From Acidobacteriaceae bacterium (GTDB lineage: Bacteria > Acidobacteriota > Terriglobia > Bryobacterales > Bryobacteraceae), in NCBI GenBank assembly GCA_020247055.1, contig JADCJL010000091.1:1-32036 (forward strand): a stretch of DNA of 32,036 nt. Reading direction: 5' to 3'. The position numbers were made by a program, and so were the translations under genes. Below the pieces are notes generated by a model. It saw nothing but the letters and a program-made list of their open reading frames with translations. It did no database searches and was not told the origin of the DNA. Positions 2,592 through 20,096 of this stretch are shown in pieces (the first letter of the stretch is position 1; each line of letters starts with the position of its first letter).

Positions 2592-3623
2592 TTATGCTGC
2601 TACGGGTGCGTTTGACCAACGGAACACTTCTCCCGTGGTCCACATGGCGTGCATCGCGACAGCAAGCTTACGCGCTACGGCAACGATTGCCTTCTTCATG
2701 CCGGAGCGTTTTGCAAGCCTTAGACCCCACGCTTTCAGAGCCGACCATTTGTTCACGCGCGTGAGCAGCGTCGTCGCAGCCTCGTAGAGGTACTTTCGCA
2801 CCAGGCCATCGCCGCACTTCGAGATTCGGCCATTTCGGTCAACCTCCCCCGATTGATACCGCTTCGGTGTCAGCCCGAAGTAGGCCCCAACGTCTCTGGA
2901 CTTTTTGAACTTCGCCGGATCGTCAATGGCACTCACGAAGGATGCAGCCGTCACCGGTCCTACTCCGGGCACTGTCATAAGATGACGGCATACTTTATCG
3001 TCCTTCACAAGGGCAGCGAGGCGTTCATCAAGGCACGAGATCTGTTCGCTTATATTCCTCAGCAATGTAAGCAGGCATCGTAGGCTTTCGTGCAGGATGC
3101 CATCGCCCAAGGCGATTTCCTGAACGCGATCCGCAAACCGCAAACCCTTGCCTTTGCCGAGTACTACGCCAAAGTTTTTGAGCACACCTCGCAGTTGGTT
3201 CGTCACTTCCGTGCGCATGCCCACAAGCCGTGACCGAACGCCCAGCATCGCTCGAACCTCATGGCTATCCAGGCTCTTCACGCCCACCTCCTTGTACCAG
3301 CCCATTCGGATAATCTGAGCGATGCCAGCAGCATCGTTCTTGTCCGTCTTATTCACCTGCATGCTCAAGGCCGCTTTTGTATGCCTCGCATCGATACAGA
3401 TCACTGGCAGGTTCATCGACTTCAATGCATGCCAGTGCCACGTGGACAAGGGACCACTTTCCAATCCGATGCGCGTGGCCGAGGGTGCGCGGGCTTCGAT
3501 TGTCTTGGACATGGCCGTAGGCGTTGAAGCGCACTGACCATTCCATACAATCGCGCCCTTGGCATCAACGACGCACACATGGGTGACTTCCTGAGACACG
3601 TCGAGACCGACAAAAGTTTCCAT
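2592..3623 (-). CDS. IS110-family transposase (DEDD recombinase)
   Basis: The 343-residue protein has the family length and two-domain plan. The N-terminal RuvC-like domain shows the DEDD set at D8 (GLDVSQ), E55 (GLESGP), D94 and D97 (NKTDKNDAAG). The C-terminal Transposase_20 domain contains the helix-hairpin-helix stretch LMTVPGVGPVTAAS and the segment YQSGEVDRNGRISKCG, where the serine nucleophile of the family is expected. Start: ATG 3623 preceded by AAGGAG. The frame is intact with no sign of decay, so the element may still be mobile, given a functional RNA from the adjacent non-coding end. Confidence 0.95.
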   Translation of the reverse strand: METFVGLDVSQEVTHVCVVDAKGAIVWNGQCASTPTAMSKTIEARAPSATRIGLESGPLSTWHWHALKSMNLPVICIDARHTKAALSMQVNKTDKNDAAGIAQIIRMGWYKEVGVKSLDSHEVRAMLGVRSRLVGMRTEVTNQLRGVLKNFGVVLGKGKGLRFADRVQEIALGDGILHESLRCLLTLLRNISEQISCLDERLAALVKDDKVCRHLMTVPGVGPVTAASFVSAIDDPAKFKKSRDVGAYFGLTPKRYQSGEVDRNGRISKCGDGLVRKYLYEAATTLLTRVNKWSALKAWGLRLAKRSGMKKAIVAVARKLAVAMHAMWTTGEVFRWSNAPVAA

Positions 3624-5184: not shown

Positions 5185-6627
5185 ATGGTGTTCATCATCG
5201 ACAAGGAGGAACTAAAACCCGGCCTTATCATCTTCCGCAGGGCTGATGTGGAGCACCGCAACTGGTATTGTCGCATCAAGCTCCCAAAGGCCGACCGCTA
5301 CAAGACGTACACCCTCAAGACATCCAACATCGAGGTCGCGAAGGAAAGGGCTTTCGACTATGACGCGGACGTCCGCTTCCGCCTCAAACACGATGTGCCG
5401 ATATTCAACCGCCCTTTCATCGACGTGGCAAGAGAATATGTCGCCACCCAGGTCGCGCGGGCGAAGCGTGGCGAGATCAGCACCGAGCGGCCTAAAAAGC
5501 TGCGCTCCATTGTCGAGGGAGTGCTGGGTGACTATATTGGCTCGACGCAGGTGCATCTGATTGGCGATGAGCTATGGGAAGGTTATCCCGCGTGGCGGCG
5601 CGACAATGGCGCTGGCCGCTTCCGCCGAAACGGCACACGGGAGGTCTCCGCCGCAGTAGCGGCCACTATTGCCGAGAAGGACGCCGCAGCCCGCAGCAAG
5701 GCTTTGCAATCTCGCGGCATCCGTATTGGCAAACCCGCGATGGCTTCACCAGAAGCTTCGCTGGGCAGCAACAAAACCGTTGCCTTCATCAGCGATGCCA
5801 CCATCAAACTCGAAATGTCCGTTTTCGCCGCCGTGATGAACTTCGCCATTAAGAAGCGCTACACTCCCGCCAGCACGCGCTTCGACGACCGCCCAAAGCT
5901 CAAGGTCATGCGGCGGGATGAATTCACGCTCGACGAATACCGCAAGCTGCATACGATCGGTCGCGGGTGGGTCAAGGCGGCAACGACATCAAACAGCACC
6001 TGGTATCGAACCGTTACCTATAACTTCATCCTGATCATGTGCAATACCGGGATGAGGCCGAGCGAGGCCAGAAATCTGCGTTGGCGCGACATCACTCCTG
6101 CGAAGGACCGCGATGGCAGGGAGATCGTCGTGCTGTTCGTACAAGGCAAGGGCAAGTCGCGCAAGCTCGTCGCCCCGAAGAGCGTCGGCGACTATCTGGA
6201 CCGCATCCGCGCCATTTCCAAGACGACGGCACCGGACGCCCCCGTGTTCACGACCATCGACGGCGATTCGACGCAGTCCCTCTATAAAGCCCTGATCGGC
6301 GACCTGCTAGACACCGCGGGACTCCGCGAAGGCGCGCAGGGTGTACCGCGCTCTACCTATTGTTTCCGCCACACCTATGCGACCATGCGGTTGCATGAAG
6401 GGGTAGACGTGTATTTTCTGGCCGAGCAGATGGGCACGTCGGTCAAGATGATCGAGGACCATTACGGCCATGTGGATACCATCAAGCACGCGGATCGCGT
6501 GTTGTCTGGCATGCACGGCTGGGAGCCGACCGAGTCCGAACCCGAAAAGAGCCGCAAGAATAAGGACGCCAAGGCCGCGCATTCCATCAAGGCCAAACAG
6601 CCGAAACGGCCACCTCGAAAACGCTAG
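5185..6627 (+). CDS. Tyrosine recombinase / site-specific integrase
   Basis: A 480-residue phage-integrase-family protein. The C-terminal catalytic domain shows Arg I at R291 (CNTGMRPSEARNLRW), the beta-hairpin Lys in GKGKSRKLV (about 321-329), Arg II at R395 (TYCFRHTYAT) and the tyrosine nucleophile at Y427 (MIEDHYGHV). The usual His of the HxxR box is Tyr392, and the usual LGH histidine position is Thr (MGTSV); both substitutions occur in related recombinases. The N-terminal half would bind arm and core DNA. It is longer than most integrases, with a basic tail. This is the second integrase in the window, so the 4.6-7 kb segment may be a nested element or an older integration module. The repeat array directly upstream may be its binding sites. 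Confidence 0.93.
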   Translation: MVFIIDKEELKPGLIIFRRADVEHRNWYCRIKLPKADRYKTYTLKTSNIEVAKERAFDYDADVRFRLKHDVPIFNRPFIDVAREYVATQVARAKRGEISTERPKKLRSIVEGVLGDYIGSTQVHLIGDELWEGYPAWRRDNGAGRFRRNGTREVSAAVAATIAEKDAAARSKALQSRGIRIGKPAMASPEASLGSNKTVAFISDATIKLEMSVFAAVMNFAIKKRYTPASTRFDDRPKLKVMRRDEFTLDEYRKLHTIGRGWVKAATTSNSTWYRTVTYNFILIMCNTGMRPSEARNLRWRDITPAKDRDGREIVVLFVQGKGKSRKLVAPKSVGDYLDRIRAISKTTAPDAPVFTTIDGDSTQSLYKALIGDLLDTAGLREGAQGVPRSTYCFRHTYATMRLHEGVDVYFLAEQMGTSVKMIEDHYGHVDTIKHADRVLSGMHGWEPTESEPEKSRKNKDAKAAHSIKAKQPKRPPRKR

Positions 6628-9777: not shown

Positions 9778-10193
9778 ACTTCGTCCTCCTCAGGATTCTC
9801 AAAATGAATGTGATCGATATGTGCGGAGTCCTCGGGCTTAAGCCCTTCCTCCGCGAGGGTGCCTTCTTGCACATAGCGCGCTCGGTGACGCCGAAGCAGG
9901 TCGTAAAGCGTGATGAGTCTGCGGCCTTCGATGACCACGATGCCGGATGCAAAGGCGAGTTTAAGCTGGTCTGCCGGGCTGAAGAAAATCTTCATGAGTG
10001 TGCCGTAGGCCAGAGCGCAACGCGTTCCGTCCTTGAAGCGAACATCGAGCATGAGGTCATCTTCTCGGTTGCGGTTTCCGGCGAAGGATTCGCGAACCGA
10101 ATCGTCCTCATCCGCTTTGTCCGAACTGGAACGCCCTCCGAGACGTTCCAATACTGCTCCAGCCCGTTTGGGCGGATCAAATGGTTCTTTCAT
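9774..10193 (-). CDS. Relaxase-operon protein of unknown function
   Basis: A 139-residue soluble protein between mobF and the H-NS-like gene. It overlaps the end of mobF by 17 bases and the next gene by four (ATGA). Start ATG 10193 follows AAAGGA. The first 40 residues are charged and probably disordered; the centre (LMLDVRFKDGTRCALAYG) looks like a compact beta-rich domain, followed by LITLYDLLRRHRARYV. No catalytic motif seen. Tight coupling to the relaxase suggests an accessory role in mobilization, but this is inference. Confidence 0.75.
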   Translation of the reverse strand: MKEPFDPPKRAGAVLERLGGRSSSDKADEDDSVRESFAGNRNREDDLMLDVRFKDGTRCALAYGTLMKIFFSPADQLKLAFASGIVVIEGRRLITLYDLLRRHRARYVQEGTLAEEGLKPEDSAHIDHIHFENPEEDEV

Positions 10194-12963
10194 TTGGGTG
10201 ATCCTTTCCTAGGCGCGTAGCAATCATGTCGCGGCCCTTCTCGCGAAGGATCTGATAGTTCTGCTTGATTGCATCGCGCAGTTTCTGGGTTTGTTTGGGC
10301 CTTGCCTGCGGCGACTGCCCCGCAAGGAGCTCGGTTGCGGACAGCCGCTCGCTGGTCGTCTTCACCGCATCGAGCATTGCCTGCTTGTCGTCCGTGTAGA
10401 GCTTTACGGACTCCCGGCCCCGCGATACCGACACATAGAATTGTTCACGAGAGGCCGCGACCAGGGCGTCCTGCCCCATTGCGACGAATACCTTGTCCAC
10501 TGTCTTGCCCTGCGCCGAATGACTGGTACTCGCATAGCCGTAAGCCATGTGCCCGTAGTGCTTCGGGACCACGAAACCATTGGTGAGGCGGATGTCGCCC
10601 TCGCGGGTAAAACCGTCCACCTGAAACACCGCGCCGTTGTTGAGGCGCGGCTTATCGGCTTTGCCGGTGCGCTCGCTTTGGGTGCCGTAACCATTTTGGG
10701 TAATACGCACCACGTCACCAGCGGCGAGGTCTATTTCGGCTGGGCGGTAAACTTGGAAGCGCTCGGCGTCGGCAAGTTGCAGGGAAGATTTCTTTCCATT
10801 CGCGCACTTTACCGTGACGCCGTCTTTGTCATGGCCCAGAACCTCGACTTTCTCGCCACGCTTGAAGCCCTTTACATTTTGGTGGAACTGCACGACCAAG
10901 CCCGCCTTGTAGAGGGCGGCTTCTTTTCTTTGGGCAGTGGTCCAGTTGGCCATTTCAAGCGACTGGAACGTTCGTTCCTTGTCGCCCAGCCTGCCTTGTT
11001 CGCGAAGGCCCTCGCGGATATAGTCTGTAATCCGGTCGCCCTCGGCATGGGTCGGCGCGACCACTAGCGCCGTCTTTACCGTGCCGTCATACTTTCGCTC
11101 GGTCGTGGCAGTAAGGTAGTCGCTGGCCATCTGCCGGTAACGCTCTTCTCCCTCTATCTCAACAATCGCGCCTATTCGTTCAAGCGCCTCGATACCCTCG
11201 GCGAGTTTAGTACCGTTCTTGCTCGGTGCGTCGCCCTCGCTGATCGCTTGCACCGCCGCGCGGTAGCTGGCGTTTGTTTGCCGTCTCACATCTTTGAGCT
11301 CGGCAAACGGAAGCCCTGCTTCCTCTTCGATAATGCGTAGTGCATCACCCCTGACAACCGCCGTATGCTGCTTCTTGTCGCCTGCGAGTATGACCCGGCA
11401 GCTTTGCTCTTTAGCCAGAGCAAAGAGTCGGTTCGTATCCTTCACCGACAGAAGCCCTGCCTCGTCAATCCAGATGACCTGGCCTTTCACTTGGCTTCGC
11501 AGATTCTCATCCGTAAGGAGCCTCTCAACCGTATCGGCATTTTCGAACCCTTCCGACCGGAGAACGCCGCGCGAGGCTTCCGCCGAAGGCGCGAAGGTGA
11601 ACACCTCGTGCCCGCCTTGGCGGATGGCAGCGACGGTTGCTTGCATCATGCGCGTCTTGCCGGTACCGGCACCGCCGCGCAGTCCTATGACCTGGTCGCG
11701 TGAGGCGAGAATCTTTTCCGCCGCTGCGCGTTGCTCAGGCGTGAGGGAAGCATCAAGGTTCGGGGCGTCGTGACCAGACAATCTTTTGTATGCGCCCCGG
11801 CCCTGACGCGCGAACGCAACCATATCCGTCTCTTCGCGGTACACATGTTTGGTCGTCGCGTAACGCACGCCGCCGACATCCTTAAGGATGATTTCGCCAT
11901 TCCCCGATTCGGCCCTAACCTCATCCACCGATACCGAACCAACCCCGTGCATCAGCGCTTCAGCAAGGAGTTGCTTTTCGCGAACGACGGAAGCGCGCTC
12001 GAAGCAATGCTGCGTCGCATGGCTCAGCGCCTGCTCGGGCGTGATTGCTTTGTCGCTTACGCGCCCACGAGCGTCCCTTAGCGAAGCATTGTCGGCATCG
12101 GTCAGACGCTTGTTCCACTCCGCCCTAAGCTCATCTATCGTCAGCTCCGTGTTCTTGGCATTGCGAGTTATGCGGCCCAGTCCGGCCTTGCGCTTGGCGT
12201 CAGTGATACCGCGCTTGGCAGCCTCAGCTTCGATGAGCTGCGCCCGGCGCGAGAACTTGTCGGTCAGGCTCTCGTCGATTCCGGCCAACCGGAAGCTCTT
12301 GCCATCGCGCTCAATACCGTATCCAAGGTCCGCGAGCTTGCCCGCAAGCCTTGAATGAAACGCCGCCTGATAGTACACGGCGTCGCGTTTGATCGCGCTG
12401 AACTCTCCTGCCTTCCAGCAATCCTCGACGGCGTCATAACTGAGGTTCATCGCTACGGCATGGATATGCAGTTGCGGGTCCGGCACCCCGTCCGCAAGGG
12501 GTCTTGTCGTGCGATGCACGAACTCGCCCCAAACCATATTGCCGGTCTGCCGGTCATGGAACGCACCGCCTTTGCGTACCCGCACCGCCATTGCCTGCTC
12601 AACTTCTGCCATCGTCTCGCGCACGGCGTCCGTAAATGCCGTGCGTACCCGCTCATCCCCGCCCAGTTCATACGCTAGCGTTACGGACTTCGGCGCATCG
12701 AAGGTAAAGTCATACGTGACTCGGCGATTTGCCTTCATGCGCGCCGTCAGTTGCTCACCCGTCTCCGGGTGCTGGTTATCGCATAGACGCTCGAAACTCT
12801 CCTTGTCGATAGCGCCTTCGAGCCCGAGGGCCTTTGCTCCGAGTCCATGCCACTTGCCAGAGATTTGCTGGCCGTCTTTCATGTAGTAATCAGCTTGCGC
12901 CAATTCCTGCTTGAAGTAGTCTTTTGCAGCCTGACTGTTCGATGTATGGTTGATGAATAACAT
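10177..12963 (-). CDS. mobF: MobF-family relaxase-helicase (TrwC/TraI type)
   Basis: A 928-residue protein that would nick oriT, attach covalently to the 5' end and unwind the plasmid-form strand. The N-terminal relaxase domain (1-300) has candidate nucleophiles Y16 and Y26/Y27 (DYF...ADYY), the second pair at the same position as in TrwC, and the metal-binding histidines H150, H166 and H168 (PQLHIHAVAMN). The helicase domain has Walker A at 430-437 (GGAGTGKT) and Walker B at D500/E501 (VIWIDEAGLL), then RecD-like motifs. I prefer ATG 12963 to the upstream ATG 12981 because GAGGTAGG precedes it and the family begins with this segment. First gene of a three-gene operon. A shorter C-terminus than F TraI is normal for this branch. 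Confidence 0.97.
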   Translation of the reverse strand: MLFINHTSNSQAAKDYFKQELAQADYYMKDGQQISGKWHGLGAKALGLEGAIDKESFERLCDNQHPETGEQLTARMKANRRVTYDFTFDAPKSVTLAYELGGDERVRTAFTDAVRETMAEVEQAMAVRVRKGGAFHDRQTGNMVWGEFVHRTTRPLADGVPDPQLHIHAVAMNLSYDAVEDCWKAGEFSAIKRDAVYYQAAFHSRLAGKLADLGYGIERDGKSFRLAGIDESLTDKFSRRAQLIEAEAAKRGITDAKRKAGLGRITRNAKNTELTIDELRAEWNKRLTDADNASLRDARGRVSDKAITPEQALSHATQHCFERASVVREKQLLAEALMHGVGSVSVDEVRAESGNGEIILKDVGGVRYATTKHVYREETDMVAFARQGRGAYKRLSGHDAPNLDASLTPEQRAAAEKILASRDQVIGLRGGAGTGKTRMMQATVAAIRQGGHEVFTFAPSAEASRGVLRSEGFENADTVERLLTDENLRSQVKGQVIWIDEAGLLSVKDTNRLFALAKEQSCRVILAGDKKQHTAVVRGDALRIIEEEAGLPFAELKDVRRQTNASYRAAVQAISEGDAPSKNGTKLAEGIEALERIGAIVEIEGEERYRQMASDYLTATTERKYDGTVKTALVVAPTHAEGDRITDYIREGLREQGRLGDKERTFQSLEMANWTTAQRKEAALYKAGLVVQFHQNVKGFKRGEKVEVLGHDKDGVTVKCANGKKSSLQLADAERFQVYRPAEIDLAAGDVVRITQNGYGTQSERTGKADKPRLNNGAVFQVDGFTREGDIRLTNGFVVPKHYGHMAYGYASTSHSAQGKTVDKVFVAMGQDALVAASREQFYVSVSRGRESVKLYTDDKQAMLDAVKTTSERLSATELLAGQSPQARPKQTQKLRDAIKQNYQILREKGRDMIATRLGKDHPNERTI

Positions 12964-12983
12964 CGACCTACCTCGCCCCATTT

Positions 12984-13012
12984 GCGTTAATTAAAGAAAG
13001 CGTTAAATAAAG
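12984..13012. repeat. Direct repeat upstream of mobF
   Basis: GCGTTAATTAAAG (12984-12996) and GCGTTAAATAAAG (13000-13012), one mismatch, 16-base period, ending just where a TATGCT -10-like hexamer (minus strand, 13011-13016) for mobF begins. Suits a relaxosome accessory protein or repressor such as the RHH protein. Confidence 0.5.
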
Positions 13013-13055
13013 CATAGGCATGTAATGGTTAAAGAACCCCTAAGAATCCATAAAC

Positions 13056-13160
13056 TTGTAGACATCTCTCCTAAGCGGTGCTTAGGGCCGCTTTGCGGCT
13101 GCTTGCAGGCTCGAAGGCATGGCCTAAAGGCTCTTGCCTTAAGGCCAGCGTCGTCTACAA
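13056..13160. other. oriT: Candidate origin of transfer (oriT)
   Basis: Non-coding gap beside the MobF gene. TTGTAGAC (13056-13063) and its exact complement GTCTACAA (13153-13160) enclose three consecutive hairpins: CCTAAGC/GCTTAGG with a GGT loop (13070-13086), GCCGC/GCGGC with a TTT loop (13087-13099), and an 11-base pair of arms with one mismatch and a TCTT loop (13121-13146). On the minus strand the left repeat reads ATGTCTACAAG, close to the TGTCTATAG-type nick region known for R388/TrwC. Position, structure and motif agree; no nick site is proven. Confidence 0.5.
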
Positions 13161-13161
13161 T
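13134..13161 (+). promoter_or_regulatory. Promoter for the 13192 gene
   Basis: TTGCCT (13134-13139), 16-base spacer, TACAAT (13156-13161), about 30 bases before the start codon. It overlaps the right side of the oriT candidate, so relaxosome binding could repress it. Confidence 0.45.
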
Positions 13162-13191
13162 CGGGGTTCCTAACCTTGACCTAAGGCGCTG

Positions 13192-13425
13192 ATGACCGCT
13201 GAGAGTAACGACGAGCCAACCAGCATCTTCCTTCCCGACTTTGAATCGATGACGATCGATGATTTGCGGGCCTACATTGCCCGCTCGCGCCGACAGCTTG
13301 AACGCTTCGAGCAACTCCCAGGCGGCGCGCAAAGTCCCATCGACCCCGAGGAAGCGGCGATCATCCGCAGGCTCTGTGATGAGCTGGAAGCGAGTCTCGA
13401 CGCCAGGGTGGGAAACGGTGAGTAG
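13192..13425 (+). CDS. Small hypothetical protein
   Basis: A 77-residue acidic protein divergent from mobF, with an AAGG ribosome-like site 9 bases before ATG 13192. It is predicted mostly helical (SMTIDDLRAYIARSRRQLERF, then DPEEAAIIRRLCDELEASL), which suggests a helical bundle or coiled-coil dimer. No DNA-binding motif is visible. Its promoter overlaps the oriT candidate, so it may belong to the relaxosome, but there is no direct evidence. Confidence 0.6.
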   Translation: MTAESNDEPTSIFLPDFESMTIDDLRAYIARSRRQLERFEQLPGGAQSPIDPEEAAIIRRLCDELEASLDARVGNGE

Positions 13426-13476
13426 CGCGAGCTTCTTAGACGTCCTGTTTGCTGTCCTTTGCGCCACTTTCTCTGC

Positions 13477-13514
13477 GTGACAATTACTCCGTTTCAGCGT
13501 AGACTGAGCGTAGA
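13477..13514 (+). promoter_or_regulatory. Promoter and direct-repeat operator of the toxin-antitoxin pair
   Basis: GTGACA (13477-13482), 17-base spacer, TAGACT (13500-13505). Two copies of AGCGTAGA (13496-13503 and 13507-13514), exactly 11 bases apart, cover the -10 region, the expected place for autorepression by the antitoxin or toxin-antitoxin complex. Confidence 0.55.
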
Positions 13515-13536
13515 AATCAAAACGTTCAGGAAGCCC

Positions 13537-13791
13537 ATGACGTACCACCTCGACATCCCAGAATCGGTAGCCAGCAGCCTTCGGTTGCCTGAGCCTGAGG
13601 TCGAGCCGCGCCTGCGTAGTGAGCTTGCCGTTGCGCTTTACGCCCAGTGCATCCTGCCCTTCGGTAAGGCGACAGAACTTGCCGGAATGTCTCGCACTAC
13701 CTTCGCAGATCTGGTAACCAGCCGAAACATTCCGCGTCATTATTCCGAGGACGACCTCGCCCAAGACCTCCGCTATGCGCGCGGTCAGTAA
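13537..13791 (+). CDS. UPF0175 family antitoxin-like protein
   Basis: An 84-residue protein, start ATG 13537 with AGGAAG upstream; earlier in-frame starts read through the promoter and are rejected. The body (RLRSELAVALYAQCILPFGKA, ELAGMSRTTFADLV) matches UPF0175, whose helix-turn-helix-like segment probably binds DNA. These proteins are commonly encoded just before a DUF3368 gene, as here with a 17-base overlap, and act as putative antitoxins. Autoregulation is suggested by the repeats on its promoter. Confidence 0.85.
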   Translation: MTYHLDIPESVASSLRLPEPEVEPRLRSELAVALYAQCILPFGKATELAGMSRTTFADLVTSRNIPRHYSEDDLAQDLRYARGQ

Positions 13792-14266
13792 CACGTCACC
13801 CGTCTCGAACCTTGCCTGCATCAGGCAGCTTGAGTTACTCAAGCTCCAATACCAGAAGCTATGGATACCGGCCAGCGTCGCAGAAGAACTGTCACTCCAT
13901 CCTGACGAGTCGGCTCGCGCCGCCATAGAATCGGCGATCCGCGAAGGGTGGATAGAGGTCGCGTCCGTGCCGAGCTCACCACTGCTCAAAACGCTCATGC
14001 TGAATCTGCATCGCGGCGAAGCCGAAGCCATTGCACTCGCCACCGAAATGAAGGCAGAGATCGTGCTTATCGACGAGCAGGAAGGGCGGCAGTTTGCAAC
14101 GCAGGCGGGTCTATCCGTAACCGGCGTGCTAGGCGTTCTTCTGCGCGCAAAGAAGACCGGCCACATCGTCGCACTGAGACCCGTTATAGAAGCGCTACGC
14201 GCCAACGCCCGGTTCTTCATCGCACCCGCACTGGAAGCGCGAGTACTGTCTGAAGCCGGTGAGTAA
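13775..14266 (+). CDS. DUF3368 PIN-like toxin
   Basis: A 163-residue protein of the DUF3368 group of PIN-domain relatives, expected to cleave RNA. The family signature is present: N-terminal VSNTSPVSNL, central HRGEAEAIALA and LIDEQEGR, which supply acidic residues of the PIN site. The first acidic position of classical PIN domains is Asn here (SNTSP), as in many DUF3368 members, so nuclease activity cannot be assumed. The overlap with the UPF0175 gene shows a two-gene operon, likely an addiction module stabilising the element. Confidence 0.85.
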   Translation: MRAVSNTSPVSNLACIRQLELLKLQYQKLWIPASVAEELSLHPDESARAAIESAIREGWIEVASVPSSPLLKTLMLNLHRGEAEAIALATEMKAEIVLIDEQEGRQFATQAGLSVTGVLGVLLRAKKTGHIVALRPVIEALRANARFFIAPALEARVLSEAGE

Positions 14267-14306
14267 GGTTCGGCGGATTGCAACCCTTGCCTGGATCGGT
14301 TCATCG

Positions 14307-14633
14307 CTAGCGTTCCCATCCGCGTGACCTCTTTTGGATTGCCGTCTGCCCAGCAAAGCGGTCTGTTGGACTCATCGCCGCCTGCGTTTTGTTTTGGTTA
14401 TTCTGCTTCTGAAGCAGCGCCGCATTACTGCCACCTTCACCTGCCGAAGGTCCGCTCTTGACGTGCATTGTGGCCTTGTTCAGCCGTTCGCCAATCTCCC
14501 TCGCCTTGGCGAGCTGCAAAGCCGGTACCACCTTGGAAACGTCCTGCTTCACAGGTGCTGTCTTGGCGGCTTCAATGGCAGGCTTAGGTGCAGCCTGCTG
14601 CTGCCGGTTCTTGATGAAATCGAGGATTGCCAT
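14307..14633 (-). CDS. Small hypothetical protein of the coupling-protein operon
   Basis: A 108-residue protein rich in Gln, Asn, Ala and Lys, start ATG 14633 after AAGGAG. The N-terminus (MAILDFIKNRQQQA) could be a short amphipathic helix; the rest looks largely disordered, except a helix around LQLAKAREIGERLNKATM. It is the last gene after the coupling protein and the membrane protein, but an intrinsic terminator stands directly before it, so its expression is probably reduced or separately controlled. No family recognised. Confidence 0.6.
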   Translation of the reverse strand: MAILDFIKNRQQQAAPKPAIEAAKTAPVKQDVSKVVPALQLAKAREIGERLNKATMHVKSGPSAGEGGSNAALLQKQNNQNKTQAAMSPTDRFAGQTAIQKRSRGWER

Positions 14634-14710: not shown

Positions 14711-15502
14711 TTAAGCCGCCTTCGGTGGCTCGACTGCGGAGAGGAGTTGCGCTATCTCACTGGGCAACTCCGCTGGCTTGGGTGCCATTTGCAGGATTGC
14801 CGCCGCCCGGATTTCCGGCGGGACGCTGCCTGCGAACCCGGCCAAATGGACCCGAGCCAGTTCCCTCTCGGTAGCCTTGCCCGTGACTGCTTTCGCGACG
14901 AGTGGACCTGCAAACTTGGTGTCCATCATCGTCCTAAGTTGCAGCCATGCCTGATACCAGCACAGGTAGTTTTTGACGGCCAGTGCGATTGCACAAACTA
15001 GCAGGTAAACCATCGCGGGACGGTCAAGGATGGTGACGAGCCTGAGGAGGATTGCCAGCGCCGCAACGAAGGCCGGTTCCCACAAAACCCGCACGGCCCA
15101 AAATGACTTGCCGAGGGGCAGCTGCTCAAAGAATGGCAAAGGTTCGCCCTCGAACTGACTGTGCTGTTCGAGCTCCATATTAAACACCCTTCGCCACAAT
15201 CGTGGGGCATGGATGATGCTCCCCACAAAGAACAGCATGGACACGGTGCCGAGTCCGACATAGCCTCCGCCTGAGTCACTCTCTGCGATGGGCAGCATGT
15301 TCTTAAGGCCCCCTAGCAGCGGCAATAGCGTCATCAGCAGGCAGGTAAACATCATCTGAATCGGGTCGAAATAGCGCGTTCCGAAGAAGGGTCTGAGGGC
15401 GTACTCCACTGGCGTGGTGATGATCCCGCAGACGCCTTGCGCGACATTGAGACCTCCTTGGTAAAGCTCCCGCAGCGTGCCTGGATTCTGGTTGTCTGAC
15501 AT
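14711..15502 (-). CDS. Four-helix membrane protein, probable coupling-protein partner
   Basis: A 263-residue protein, start ATG 15502 behind AAAGGAG. Four hydrophobic segments are visible, in two pairs (about 46-66, 80-98, and 140-158, 163-182), separated by a soluble part, with a cytoplasmic-looking C-terminal tail (GKATERELARVHLAGFAG). The gene follows the coupling-protein gene by 32 bases. The coupling protein lacks an N-terminal membrane anchor, so this protein may supply it; that is inference from gene order. I recognise no named family. Confidence 0.7.
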   Translation of the reverse strand: MSDNQNPGTLRELYQGGLNVAQGVCGIITTPVEYALRPFFGTRYFDPIQMMFTCLLMTLLPLLGGLKNMLPIAESDSGGGYVGLGTVSMLFFVGSIIHAPRLWRRVFNMELEQHSQFEGEPLPFFEQLPLGKSFWAVRVLWEPAFVAALAILLRLVTILDRPAMVYLLVCAIALAVKNYLCWYQAWLQLRTMMDTKFAGPLVAKAVTGKATERELARVHLAGFAGSVPPEIRAAAILQMAPKPAELPSEIAQLLSAVEPPKAA

Positions 15503-15534: not shown

Positions 15535-16980
15535 TTAGACGCTACGCGTGAAAGCTACCGTAAGGTGATTACGCCCCTGGTGGTTCTCATTCGTAACGGT
15601 TGCGTTGAAAGCTTTGCCGCCCTGGTAAACAATGGCGGTAGAAATCGGACTGACGGAGTCGGGCTTGGTGAGCTGCGAAAACGCAATCGGCTCAACGTTG
15701 TAGACAAGCTGCTGCGCTGCCCCGAAGCTTGCCCCGCCGGTTGCGTCGGCATTGTAGCTATCGAGATAGCGGTAGCGCTTACCGATGAGCTCGGCGGCAT
15801 ATTGGTTGGTGTCGGGATCATTCTGCTGGTGGAAAATCTTCAGCATCAGATTGCCGAGAAACGCCTTGGTCTTCGACCCCGGCTGCTGCTCACCCAATTC
15901 CTCAGAGAGGTTGAGGATGTTCTGCGTTAGGCACACCACCGCCACGCGCGCACTACGGCAGGTTTGCTGAAAAGCGTTATCCCGCTTCGTCACGAAGTAC
16001 TGAAATTCGTCTTGCCACAAAAAGACCGGGTTTGACGACTGCGATAGATCACGCCGGAGCCAGGCACGTTGGAAGACGAGTTTGATGAGGCAGTTGATGA
16101 GCCGTCCCGTCTCGTGCCCATATTCGAGCATCGGAAAGTCGACGATCACGATCTTGCCAGCGTGGGTTGTTAGCTCCGGCAAAAAGGTGCACTTGCCGCC
16201 GCAGAACAGTCGGTTGAGCGGATTGAACAAAAACTTGTCTGCCATGCCCGCCCAGGTCATCTCGATAGAGGAACGAGGGCGTTCGTCGAAGGATGGCCAG
16301 CGCTTGAAGGCGTATTGCGTAGCATTGTCCAAATCGCCCCACTGCGACTCCGTCAATGTGTCCTTGCGCTCCCGAATCGAGTTGATGAGCTTCGCGCAAT
16401 AGGATTCCTCCTGCCAGCCTTCCTCTTCAAACTCGCCCGGCCTCGACGGCAACGACTGGATGACCCGGTGCATATTCGCAATCGACACCGGTTCCCCGGA
16501 GAGTGACAAGAGCACTAGCACGTTGCGTATGAGTTGCTCGGCGGCCAGCTCCCAAAAGCGGTCGCTACTCATGCCGGAATGGGTCTTGCCGATGGCAAGC
16601 AGCGTGGAGAACAGGTCGATGATGCTTTCAAGGTCCCCGGCCCCGCGCCCAGGACGGTTCCAGTCGTACCAGAGCAGGTCGAAGACGTGTCCGCTTTCGG
16701 CGTTGAAGATGATGAGATCTTTCGTCCGACCGCAAGCCTTGGCGTATTCAATCCAGTTGCGCGTTTCCTCGGCCTTTGCGGTGAGGATCAGTCCGCCCAT
16801 CATGGGCGTCCTCAGGAACGAGTAGGCCAGCGCCTTGCCGCTACAACTGCTTTTGCCGGAGCCAGGTGAACCCGTAATCAGAGTGCCCTCAAAGGCGTCT
16901 CCGAGCGTCCAGATGTCCGATTGCGAAAATACCTGGAGCGGCGTATTGAGTTGGTCGTTAGTTGGTATTGTTTGCCCCAT
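15535..16980 (-). CDS. Type IV coupling protein (VirD4/TraD-like ATPase) without membrane domain
   Basis: A 481-residue ATPase that would bring the relaxosome to a type IV secretion channel. Start ATG 16980 follows AAGGAG; the longer frame to 17064 lacks a ribosome site. Walker A is GSPGSGKS (37-44), Walker B is LWQDEFQYF with D324/E325, followed by the sensor-like VVCLTQN (349-354) and a TraM-recognition-like C-terminus. Walker A lies only about 36 residues from the N-terminus, and no transmembrane segment precedes it, unlike classical VirD4 or TraG. The next gene encodes a four-helix membrane protein, possibly a split-off anchor. No secretion-channel genes are nearby. Confidence 0.92.
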   Translation of the reverse strand: MGQTIPTNDQLNTPLQVFSQSDIWTLGDAFEGTLITGSPGSGKSSCSGKALAYSFLRTPMMGGLILTAKAEETRNWIEYAKACGRTKDLIIFNAESGHVFDLLWYDWNRPGRGAGDLESIIDLFSTLLAIGKTHSGMSSDRFWELAAEQLIRNVLVLLSLSGEPVSIANMHRVIQSLPSRPGEFEEEGWQEESYCAKLINSIRERKDTLTESQWGDLDNATQYAFKRWPSFDERPRSSIEMTWAGMADKFLFNPLNRLFCGGKCTFLPELTTHAGKIVIVDFPMLEYGHETGRLINCLIKLVFQRAWLRRDLSQSSNPVFLWQDEFQYFVTKRDNAFQQTCRSARVAVVCLTQNILNLSEELGEQQPGSKTKAFLGNLMLKIFHQQNDPDTNQYAAELIGKRYRYLDSYNADATGGASFGAAQQLVYNVEPIAFSQLTKPDSVSPISTAIVYQGGKAFNATVTNENHQGRNHLTVAFTRSV

Positions 16981-16996
16981 GAGTCTCCTTTCTTTC

Positions 16997-17033
16997 AAGC
17001 GGTCGATTGAATCAACCGCTTCGTGATCGATCA
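16997..17033. promoter_or_regulatory. Two palindromes between coupling-protein operon and divergent regulator
   Basis: A 25-base palindrome (16997-17021) has outer arms AAGCGGT/ACCGCTT and inner arms GATT/AATC around a central G, 11 of 12 pairs matching. A perfect TGATCGATCA follows at 17024-17033. They sit in the divergent gap, close upstream of the coupling-protein start, as operators would. Confidence 0.5.
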
Positions 17034-17136
17034 TGCGGCGAACGGGCGACCCGGCGAAAGACAAGAGGGGTCAAAACCCTAATCCTGGACACACTCCCTA
17101 AGCAGAACAGTGGCTCAAACGACGATAATTGTCTCT

Positions 17137-18618: not shown

Positions 18619-18819
18619 ATGCCTTCTATCCTCACTCTCGCCGACGTTGCCAAGGTGCTCCGCTGCTCGAAGGCGCATGTGTCCAACATCATCCGAAACA
18701 AGGTTCAAGGCCTCCCGCCACTTCCTGTCGTGCGGATTGGTAGACGCGTCCTGATACGCGACGAGTCGCTCAGCGAATGGATGAAAGCTCTGGAGCATTC
18801 GCCCAGTGGAGTGAGATAA
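18619..18819 (+). CDS. xis: Excisionase-like helix-turn-helix protein
   Basis: A 66-residue MerR-like/excisionase-type DNA-binding protein. LTLADVAKVLRCSKAHVSNII is the helix-turn-helix and LPVVRIGRRVLIRDESLSEWM the wing, the standard pattern of the HTH_17 family. It would bend DNA at the attachment site and favour excision. Start ATG 18619 lacks a ribosome site and lies 10 bases after a stable hairpin. The stop overlaps the integrase start as TAATG, so translation of the integrase is probably coupled to it. It could instead act as a regulator. Confidence 0.82.
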   Translation: MPSILTLADVAKVLRCSKAHVSNIIRNKVQGLPPLPVVRIGRRVLIRDESLSEWMKALEHSPSGVR

Positions 18820-19967
18820 TGCCTTCAGACCTGAGTTCATCGCTTGGACGCACAAGGAGCATCGTGCGAAGAAAGCGATACCAAGAAGGAAGTTTGCAAG
18901 TCAGATCACACGGCAAACGGAAGATGTGGGTTGTGCTCTACCGCGAGGGAGGCGCAAGGAAATACAACACCCTTGGCCTGTTCTCGAAGATGAGCAAGAG
19001 CGAGGCCCAAAAGAAGCAGGCCGAGTTCATGGGGGAGATCAACGCGAAAGCGGCGACGACTCCCGATCCCGCCATCATGTTCGGCGATTACCTGGACAAT
19101 GTGGCTCTACCGTTCATGCGAACGAAGTGGAAGCGGTCAACCGCAATCACGACGGAGAATCGCATTACGCATCACCTGGAGGAGTTCCGCGAAACCCGGC
19201 TCGCAGCAATCACCCTGAAGGCCCTTCAAGCCTTCCTTGGCCGCAAGGCAGGGGAGTTGTCGCGCAGCATGGTGGCGCATCTTCGCTGGGATTTGCGAGC
19301 CGTGTTCAAGCTGGCTTTAGCCGAAGGCTATATCGAGCGTGATCCGACCGCCGCCCTCTTCACCCCGAGGGAAGCGGAGACGGAACCAACGCGGGTTATG
19401 ACTGGAAAGGAGGTCGAGCAGTACATCGGTGCGCTCGAACTACGCGAGCGCGTTATCGCGCACCTTGCAATTTTCGTGGGCATGCGACCCGGAGAGATTT
19501 TAGGACTCCAGCGCCAGCATGTAATCGAAGACTGCCGGGCGGTAACGATTGCACAGCGGCTCTATCGCGGCGACATCGACACACCCAAGACCAGATCATC
19601 GCGGCGAACAGTTGCCATCCCGACCAAGACAGCATCGCTGATGCTCGAATGGATGGGGTTGGTTGGCGGCGAAGCCGATGCATGGGTGTTCTCTTCGGAG
19701 AATGCAGCAAAGCCCATGTGGCGCGATAACGTCTGGTATCGAGGCATGAAGCCCAAGCTCAAACTGATAGGTTTGGATTGGGCGAACTTTCAGGTGCTAC
19801 GCCGGACACATGCCAGCCTTGGACACGAGGCGGGAATTGATCCGAAGGTAGCAGCCGACCAGCGCGGTCATGGGATTGGGGTAGCGTTGGATGTTTATAC
19901 GAAGGCCAGTCTCAACCGACGGGCCGAAGCAGCAGAAGAACTGGAAAACAGCGTCTTCGCACCTTAA
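18819..19967 (+). CDS. int: Tyrosine integrase adjacent to tRNA-Gly
   Basis: A 382-residue phage-type integrase. N-terminal arm-binding region (about 20-55), core-binding SAM-like domain (85-180), then the catalytic domain with Arg I R223 (GMRPGEILGL), Lys 257 (TPKTRSSRRTV), Arg II R328 (VLRRTHASL), His 351 (DQRGHG) and nucleophile Y360 (ALDVYTKAS). The HxxR histidine is Gln325 (FQVLRR). ATG 18819 overlaps the excisionase stop and is preferred to the longer frame at 18777. The gene ends 54 bases from the tRNA 3' end, the usual position of the recombinase at a tRNA-borne attachment site. Confidence 0.95.
   Translation: MPSDLSSSLGRTRSIVRRKRYQEGSLQVRSHGKRKMWVVLYREGGARKYNTLGLFSKMSKSEAQKKQAEFMGEINAKAATTPDPAIMFGDYLDNVALPFMRTKWKRSTAITTENRITHHLEEFRETRLAAITLKALQAFLGRKAGELSRSMVAHLRWDLRAVFKLALAEGYIERDPTAALFTPREAETEPTRVMTGKEVEQYIGALELRERVIAHLAIFVGMRPGEILGLQRQHVIEDCRAVTIAQRLYRGDIDTPKTRSSRRTVAIPTKTASLMLEWMGLVGGEADAWVFSSENAAKPMWRDNVWYRGMKPKLKLIGLDWANFQVLRRTHASLGHEAGIDPKVAADQRGHGIGVALDVYTKASLNRRAEAAEELENSVFAP

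Positions 19968-20096
<129 letters not shown>

Follow-up and report, generated by a model that had tools for sequence, protein, structure and literature searches.

The locus described here raises the question of whether the intergenic gap beside a MobF relaxase gene contains an origin of transfer (oriT) and, if so, which part of the gap constitutes it. Within the window (the whole stretch of 32,036 nt that was analyzed, from a soil bacterium), a gap of 210 nt (12982-13191) lies between the relaxase gene on the minus strand (10177-12981) and a small gene on the plus strand (13192-13425). The relaxase gene was intact and encodes a relaxase-helicase of 934 aa (Pfam TrwC, 1e-70) that scored above the curated cutoffs of NF041492 (199 bits; cutoff, 100), TIGR02686 (174 bits; cutoff, 145.5), and Pfam TrwC (239 bits; cutoff, 25) and had sequence matches to chains in the solved structures of TrwC and TraI. 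Alignment with R388 TrwC demonstrated the retention of Y18, Y26, D85, H150, H161, and H163 (R388 TrwC numbering). The HUH histidines together with two tyrosines are characteristic of a MOBF relaxase (PMC4176350). The four best plasmid relatives of the protein came from Runella and three planctomycetes and were 35 to 44% identical.

The preliminary description of this gap had proposed an oriT on the basis of three hairpins situated within an exact 8-base inverted repeat, the left arm of which, read on the minus strand, resembled the nick region of R388-type systems. All of these elements were found in the gap. The arms TTGTAGAC (13056-13063) and GTCTACAA (13153-13160) are exact complements, and the left arm on the minus strand lies within TGTCTACAAG (13064-13055), which has GTCT^A in common with R388. 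Hairpin 1 (CCTAAGC-ACC-GCTTAGG; 13070-13086, minus strand) has a perfect 7-bp stem and is the putative relaxase-recognition hairpin, similar to IR2. Hairpin 2 (GCCGC-TTT-GCGGC in the plus-strand reading; 13087-13099, minus strand) is located directly 5′ of this hairpin on the strand predicted to be nicked, while hairpin 3 (13120-13147, minus strand) consists of 12-nt arms with 92% complementarity and a 4-nt loop.

The extent of the conserved portion was indicated by relaxase locus L002, which encodes an 81% identical relaxase. The gap of this locus was mostly dissimilar to that of the window except for two segments, a core and a leader block. The core is a 29-nt block, CCCTAAGCACCGCTTAGGAGAGATGTCTA, comprising the hairpin (hairpin 1), AGAGA, and TGTCTA; it was identical in the two loci, with divergent DNA on both sides, and on the 3′ side the identity broke at one base beyond the predicted nick. 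On the minus strand from 13086 to 13055, the order is hairpin 1, a 10-nt spacer, AGAGATGTCT (13060-13069), which ends in GTCT and sets the same distance to the hairpin in relatives, and then the predicted nick. The nick was placed at GTCT^ACAA, between 13060 and 13059 of the minus strand (5′-...GTCT^ACAAG-3′), because of the R388 numbering, the position being in register with R388 nt 25^26. The base 3′ of this position is a purine, as R388 TrwC requires. In the R388 nic as described in PMC4176350, nt 12 to 16 (the proximal arm) and 17 to 25 are essential, nt 26 must be a purine, the GAAA loop at nt 8 to 11 is free to vary, and only nt 12 to 26 are strictly required.

Relaxase genes were sought across the host's order (257 genomes), with at most three candidates scored per genome. 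At least nine near-complete genes with identities of at least 48% were present, the window's own included and one of them (L106) having an in-frame stop; two further fragments (70% and 49% identity) lacked the N terminus. A hairpin followed by 10 nt ending in GTCT or GTGT was found 83 to 140 nt before the mobF ATG in eight of the nine near-complete loci. The ninth, L096, is a weak case in which the hairpin was present and the core had diverged (E of 1.9 with covariance model R1, described below). The stem of L103 contains a one-base bulge, and in L105 and L106 one stem pair had changed on both sides from A-T to T-A; covariation in this close set was modest, being attained by 25 of 500 shuffles. 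The bases after the nick were ATAC in L104 and ATAG in L106 and L108, similar to the ATAG of R388. A generic scan (a perfectly paired stem of ≥6 bp, 9 to 11 nt, and then GTCT, GTGT, or GCCT) detected seven of the nine close loci, missing L096 and the bulged stem of L103, against a background of 23 matches in 389,942 strand-nt, or ∼0.012 per 200 nt. More distantly, the design was matched by pattern in Runella (L033), a Bacteroidetes MAG (L003), Planctomycetes bacterium K2D (L034), and Paludisphaera (L035). The L033 and L003 sites have the stem CCTTAG/CTAAGG, that of L003 lying ∼2 kb upstream of mobF, and the L034 site is on the opposite strand; as R1 scores were poor for L003 (E of 2.2) and L033 (E of 5.5), these two rest on a pattern chosen post hoc. 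No site was detected in L004 (Calditrichaeota; relaxase, 45%) on the 6.8-kb contig examined, in Singulisphaera L036 (relaxase, 35%), or at a 202-aa relaxase fragment (G394:C70; 52%). For L119, the relaxase begins at residue 371, and the region upstream lies outside the sequence compared. The preliminary description had suggested looking for the hairpins and TGTCTA in relatives; hairpin 1 and a TGTCT-type core near mobF were kept at a fixed distance in relatives from the Acidobacteriota, Bacteroidota, and Planctomycetota, with some compensatory changes in the stem. Neither the other two hairpins nor the 8-bp repeat was shared with the relatives compared.

Covariance model R1 was built from the seven close sites of an equal-length set (A3); further equal-length sets contained 6 (A4) and 13 (A5) sites. 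L103, L096, and the outgroup sites were left out of the sets because of unequal length, and A5 for this reason also excluded sites whose stem or loop differed in length. A MAFFT alignment of mixed sites (A2) was rejected for modeling, since hairpins were misaligned. A search of the 257 whole genomes with R1, run with strict filters, gave 12 matches at an E of ≤0.1. Nine of these were below 1e-4, and all nine were just upstream of a mobF start, seven being training sites and two (L103 and G520:C460) being new; for the remaining three (E of 0.03 to 0.09), there was no mobF within the stretch examined. At the new site on G520:C460 (394-425; L127), the reading frame after the nic core has mobF similarity over only ∼60 codons, and the locus is apparently an element remnant. 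Over 73 stretches, the only full-length window match was 13055-13086 on the minus strand, the whole nic core, which scored 48.5 bits as a member of the training set. This was also the only site reported from its own genome at an E of ≤0.1, and a 27-nt pattern of the core occurred once in that genome at up to three mismatches. The comparisons showed that the core is conserved at a fixed spacing and with some covariation, that in the close clade it accompanies mobF, and that the relaxase retains its catalytic residues. On these comparisons, and by analogy with R388, minus-strand positions 13055-13086 are very probably the nic core of the element's oriT, which would be cut by the adjacent MobF relaxase. 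The proposal of an oriT beside mobF was thus upheld by conservation of the core, with the conserved part being smaller than the three hairpins plus the 8-bp repeat.

The fold of the region as a whole was analyzed in three ways. In each test, the 105-nt stretch folded more strongly than all 200 dinucleotide shuffles, with z scores of −4.5 for minus-strand DNA, −4.2 for plus-strand RNA, and −4.9 for minus-strand RNA. Values between −4 and −5 for both strands are consistent with a function of the entire array of 8-bp repeat and three hairpins, whether attC-like, MITE-like, or as an RNA, with the nic likeness being secondary. This explanation is extremely unlikely, as the gap matched no Rfam family at an E of 5, no further copy of the whole gap was present in its own genome, and the relatives compared, L002 among them, lacked the repeat as well as hairpins 2 and 3 while hairpin 1 and GTCT were kept. 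Furthermore, the repeat is ordinary, since 268 of 1,000 shuffles of the gap contained one of at least 8 bp. Being unshared, the repeat and the two additional hairpins do not define the oriT. The sole Rfam match in 12000-14500 was at 14351-14384, far under its gathering score. A direct DNA search of plasmid records with the gap gave no match, and neither the exact 17-nt core nor the relaxase was found in the viral contigs searched. Strong additional folding on the 5′ side of the nic hairpin (z below −3) was seen in 3 of 22 sites (the window, L002, and L096) and was rejected as a general feature.

The right arm of the repeat, GTCTACAA (13153-13160, plus strand), resembles a mirrored nic site, with hairpin 3 ending 9 to 10 nt before GTCT^ACAA on the plus strand. 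A two-sided oriT would result if this mirrored site (13156|13157) were also cut or if it paired with the first nic and closed it; the 8-bp repeat would then switch the origin on and off or allow transfer to start either way. A copy of a nick-spanning octamer arose in 20 of 5,000 shuffles of the right half and a hairpin of at least 7 bp at 9 to 11 nt in 904 of 20,000 shuffles, both tests having been chosen post hoc, and these frequencies argue to some degree against chance. The mirrored site was missing from R1 matches even at an E of 10, and the window was the only one of 22 sites in which the nick had an inverted copy of 8 nt, two of the other 21 having a 6-nt copy. The arm also overlaps a −10-like TACAAT. 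A promoter for the divergent gene had been suggested to overlap this side of the structure; one consensus match was indeed detected (TTGCCT-16-TACAAT, 13134-13161), although it is weak (9 of 12 positions) and shuffles contained a mean of 0.4 promoter-like matches against the one in the gap. Due to the overlap with this weak −10 element and the lack of an R1 match, the arm is likelier to be a chance or promoter sequence than a second nick. Hence, the arm is likely to be only the −10 box of 13192-13425 or a chance occurrence, either of which is compatible with the nic core, and a second, mirrored oriT, disfavored by its absence from R1 matches and its occurrence in 1 of 22 sites, is improbable.

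Between the predicted nick and mobF, there is a conserved leader (GATTCTTAGGGGTTC, TTAACCATT; 13016-13048, minus strand) that was kept in L002 and is possibly a mobF promoter or operator. The leader heptamer TTAACCA recurred in L103 and L127; a consensus promoter scan returned nothing promoter-like for the minus strand. The location of the conserved block 83 to 140 nt before the mobF ATG in close relatives, with the conserved TTAACC element coming after it, would also fit a site that controls the mobF promoter, as an operator or by autoregulation, and is bound at the hairpin by the relaxase or another protein without any nick. The point at which window-L002 identity stops, one base past the predicted nick, speaks against such a site, R388 strictly needing only nt 12 to 26, and further evidence on this explanation came from a sister clade of relaxases.

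Fourteen sister-clade loci were examined, with relaxases mostly 34 to 39% identical. A second model, R2, was trained on six sites of the form CCTAAGCC-NNNN-GGCTTAGG-GATGGTGTCT, and the same layout with GATGGTGTCT was detected by R2 in 12 of the 14 loci, 6 of the 12 being the training sites; L069 had a variant site, found by script only, and no site was found in L114. In 10 of the 12 R2 loci, the site followed mobF at a distance of 422 to 655 nt from its 3′ end, with 6 sites on the strand opposite to the gene and 4 on the same strand; in the other 2 loci, it was upstream of mobF. For 13 equal-length sister-clade sites, 97.1% of cells were paired, five of the eight stem pairs exhibited both-sided changes, 12 both-sided cells were observed against 2.4 in shuffles, and the covariation score was attained by none of 500 shuffles; as scripts or models in which a hairpin is a requirement were the source of many sites, pairing and, to some extent, covariation are inflated. 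Outside its own clade, R2 matched the window site best, and the match was in register, with 15.3 bits and an E of 0.054. In a tree of 39 relaxase domains (midpoint root), the site types clustered, with the two types in neighboring clades and R388 outside; L117 and L118 are labeled “none found” on this tree, although R2 later gave sites. Short near-repeats of ∼10 to 12 bp (CCGAACAA, GGGACAAAA, and CAGTCAAAA) were seen by eye directly 5′ of sister-clade nic sites, in rows in L109, L110, L111, L116, L163, L166, and L170 and with units that differed between elements; these are possible accessory-protein sites.

Across the host's order, R2 gave 39 matches at an E of ≤0.01. Nine were in mobF loci already covered; among the other 30, MobF was matched in the sequence read around 14 sites and not around the remaining 16. 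The latter 16 sites are candidate oriT-only mobilizable elements, although several of the contigs are short and mobF may simply have been cut off. Among them are L159, L162, L166, L167, and L170 (G497:C9), the last of which is on a 51-kb contig, adjoins an AbiEi/AbiEii pair, and is identical to mobF-adjacent sites of the same genome. The occurrence of sites past the 3′ end of mobF, on either strand, or without mobF in the stretch read indicated that the hairpin-spacer-GTCT arrangement is not tied to a mobF promoter, and a role solely as an operator is accordingly very unlikely. A nic site with a double role, as nick and operator, is possible.

Several features of the window bear on the element that carries the putative nic core. 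A TraG/VirD4-type coupling protein gene (15535-17064, minus strand; Pfam TraG-D_C, 7e-8) probably belongs to the same transfer module, and homologues were encoded upstream of mobF both in L002 (36%) and in Runella pSP2_3 (38%). A tyrosine integrase gene (18777-19967, plus strand; Pfam Phage_integrase, 6e-11) adjoins a tRNA-Gly gene (20022-20096, minus strand; ARAGORN), and the GC content rose from 0.58 to 0.62 between the 19- to 20-kb and 20- to 21-kb steps; the integrase and tRNA-Gly are the probable right end of an integrated element. A search of the window for att repeats at the tRNA-Gly end detected 12-bp matches only, which were taken as chance. VirB4 (PF03135), the one Pfam family through which the ATPase expected of a self-transmissible ICE was sought, had 0 matches in the 97.7%-complete draft of the own genome and was detected in 1 of 14 control genomes; the element is therefore probably mobilizable with help. 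From these gene contents, the carrier is most likely an integrative and mobilizable element with its own coupling protein. Other genes in the window include a UPF0175 gene followed by a DUF3368 gene (13459-14266, plus strand), a toxin-antitoxin-like pair between the coupling-protein genes and the oriT for which no match was found in L002 at an E of 0.1. A membrane-protein-like gene (14711-15502) between the coupling protein and the oriT has a weak homologue at the same place in L002 (26%), and an IS110-type transposase gene and a second tyrosine recombinase gene are present in the left part of the window (2592-3623 and 5185-6627).

Relaxase binding, the cut and its exact position, polarity, and rejoining can be proposed from what R388 TrwC does. 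The MobF relaxase would bind the proximal hairpin arm GCTTAGG and direct the 10-nt spacer to its active site, where cleavage between GTCT and ACAA (13060|13059) would link the enzyme to the 5′ end. As the cut is predicted on the minus strand, the transferred strand would depart with 5′-ACAAG in the lead, carrying mobF into the recipient ahead of the remainder. The hairpin would re-form at the end of the transferred strand, where the second tyrosine would rejoin the circle, and the element would probably borrow the secretion channel of a helper.

No published oriT or nic was found for these two MobF clades in a literature search conducted mainly at the level of titles and abstracts. For two MobF relaxase clades that are sisters, a testable nic sequence is now available; their members in this analysis are mostly Acidobacteriota because most searches were centered there, the others being Bacteroidota and Planctomycetota. 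The nic model permits a search for elements carrying the transfer site alone. Hairpin and spacer vary between clades in step with the relaxase, providing natural pairs for tests of DNA recognition.

Comparisons with known systems place the locus as follows. Integrative and mobilizable elements, the subject of the review PMC5704250, share with it a tyrosine integrase beside a tRNA gene, a relaxase, a coupling protein, and a genome in which VirB4 was not found, and they differ in that a left end and att repeat were not found in the window. The nearest locus, L002 (Bryobacteraceae MAG JAIEMJ010000013.1), has the identical 29-nt core, the 81% identical relaxase, and a coupling protein upstream; unlike the window, it has another flanking hairpin and is without an inverted nick copy. 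Plasmid pSP2_3 of Runella sp. SP2 (L033) has CCTTAG-CCAT-CTAAGG followed by GGAGATGTCT^G at 93 nt before mobF, a site that we read from its sequence as a candidate oriT of this plasmid, and a homologous coupling protein adjoins its mobF region; it differs in being an 11-kb mobilizable plasmid with a 44% identical relaxase. The R388 oriT and TrwC share with the window a 5′ hairpin, a short spacer ending in GTCT (9 nt in R388 and 10 nt in the window), GTCT^A, a purine past the nick, and a MobF relaxase with two tyrosine positions and HUH histidines. The sequences themselves are unlike, with the R388 hairpin being GCACC-GAAA-GGTGC as opposed to CCTAAGC-ACC-GCTTAGG and the R388 proximal arm and spacer being GGTGC and GTATTGTCT as opposed to GCTTAGG and AGAGATGTCT; the two relaxases belong to different clades, and the transferred strand leaves away from trwABC in R388, whereas in the window it would enter mobF first. 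As reported in PMC4853378, TrwC acts on the Ptw oriT of Burkholderia, where nothing similar to the R388 nic was found, and so resemblance to this nic is neither needed for function nor proof of it. The window site is, therefore, the R388 design for another relaxase clade rather than an R388 nic, and the comparisons provide good support for regarding it as a new example of a known site type rather than as a new system.
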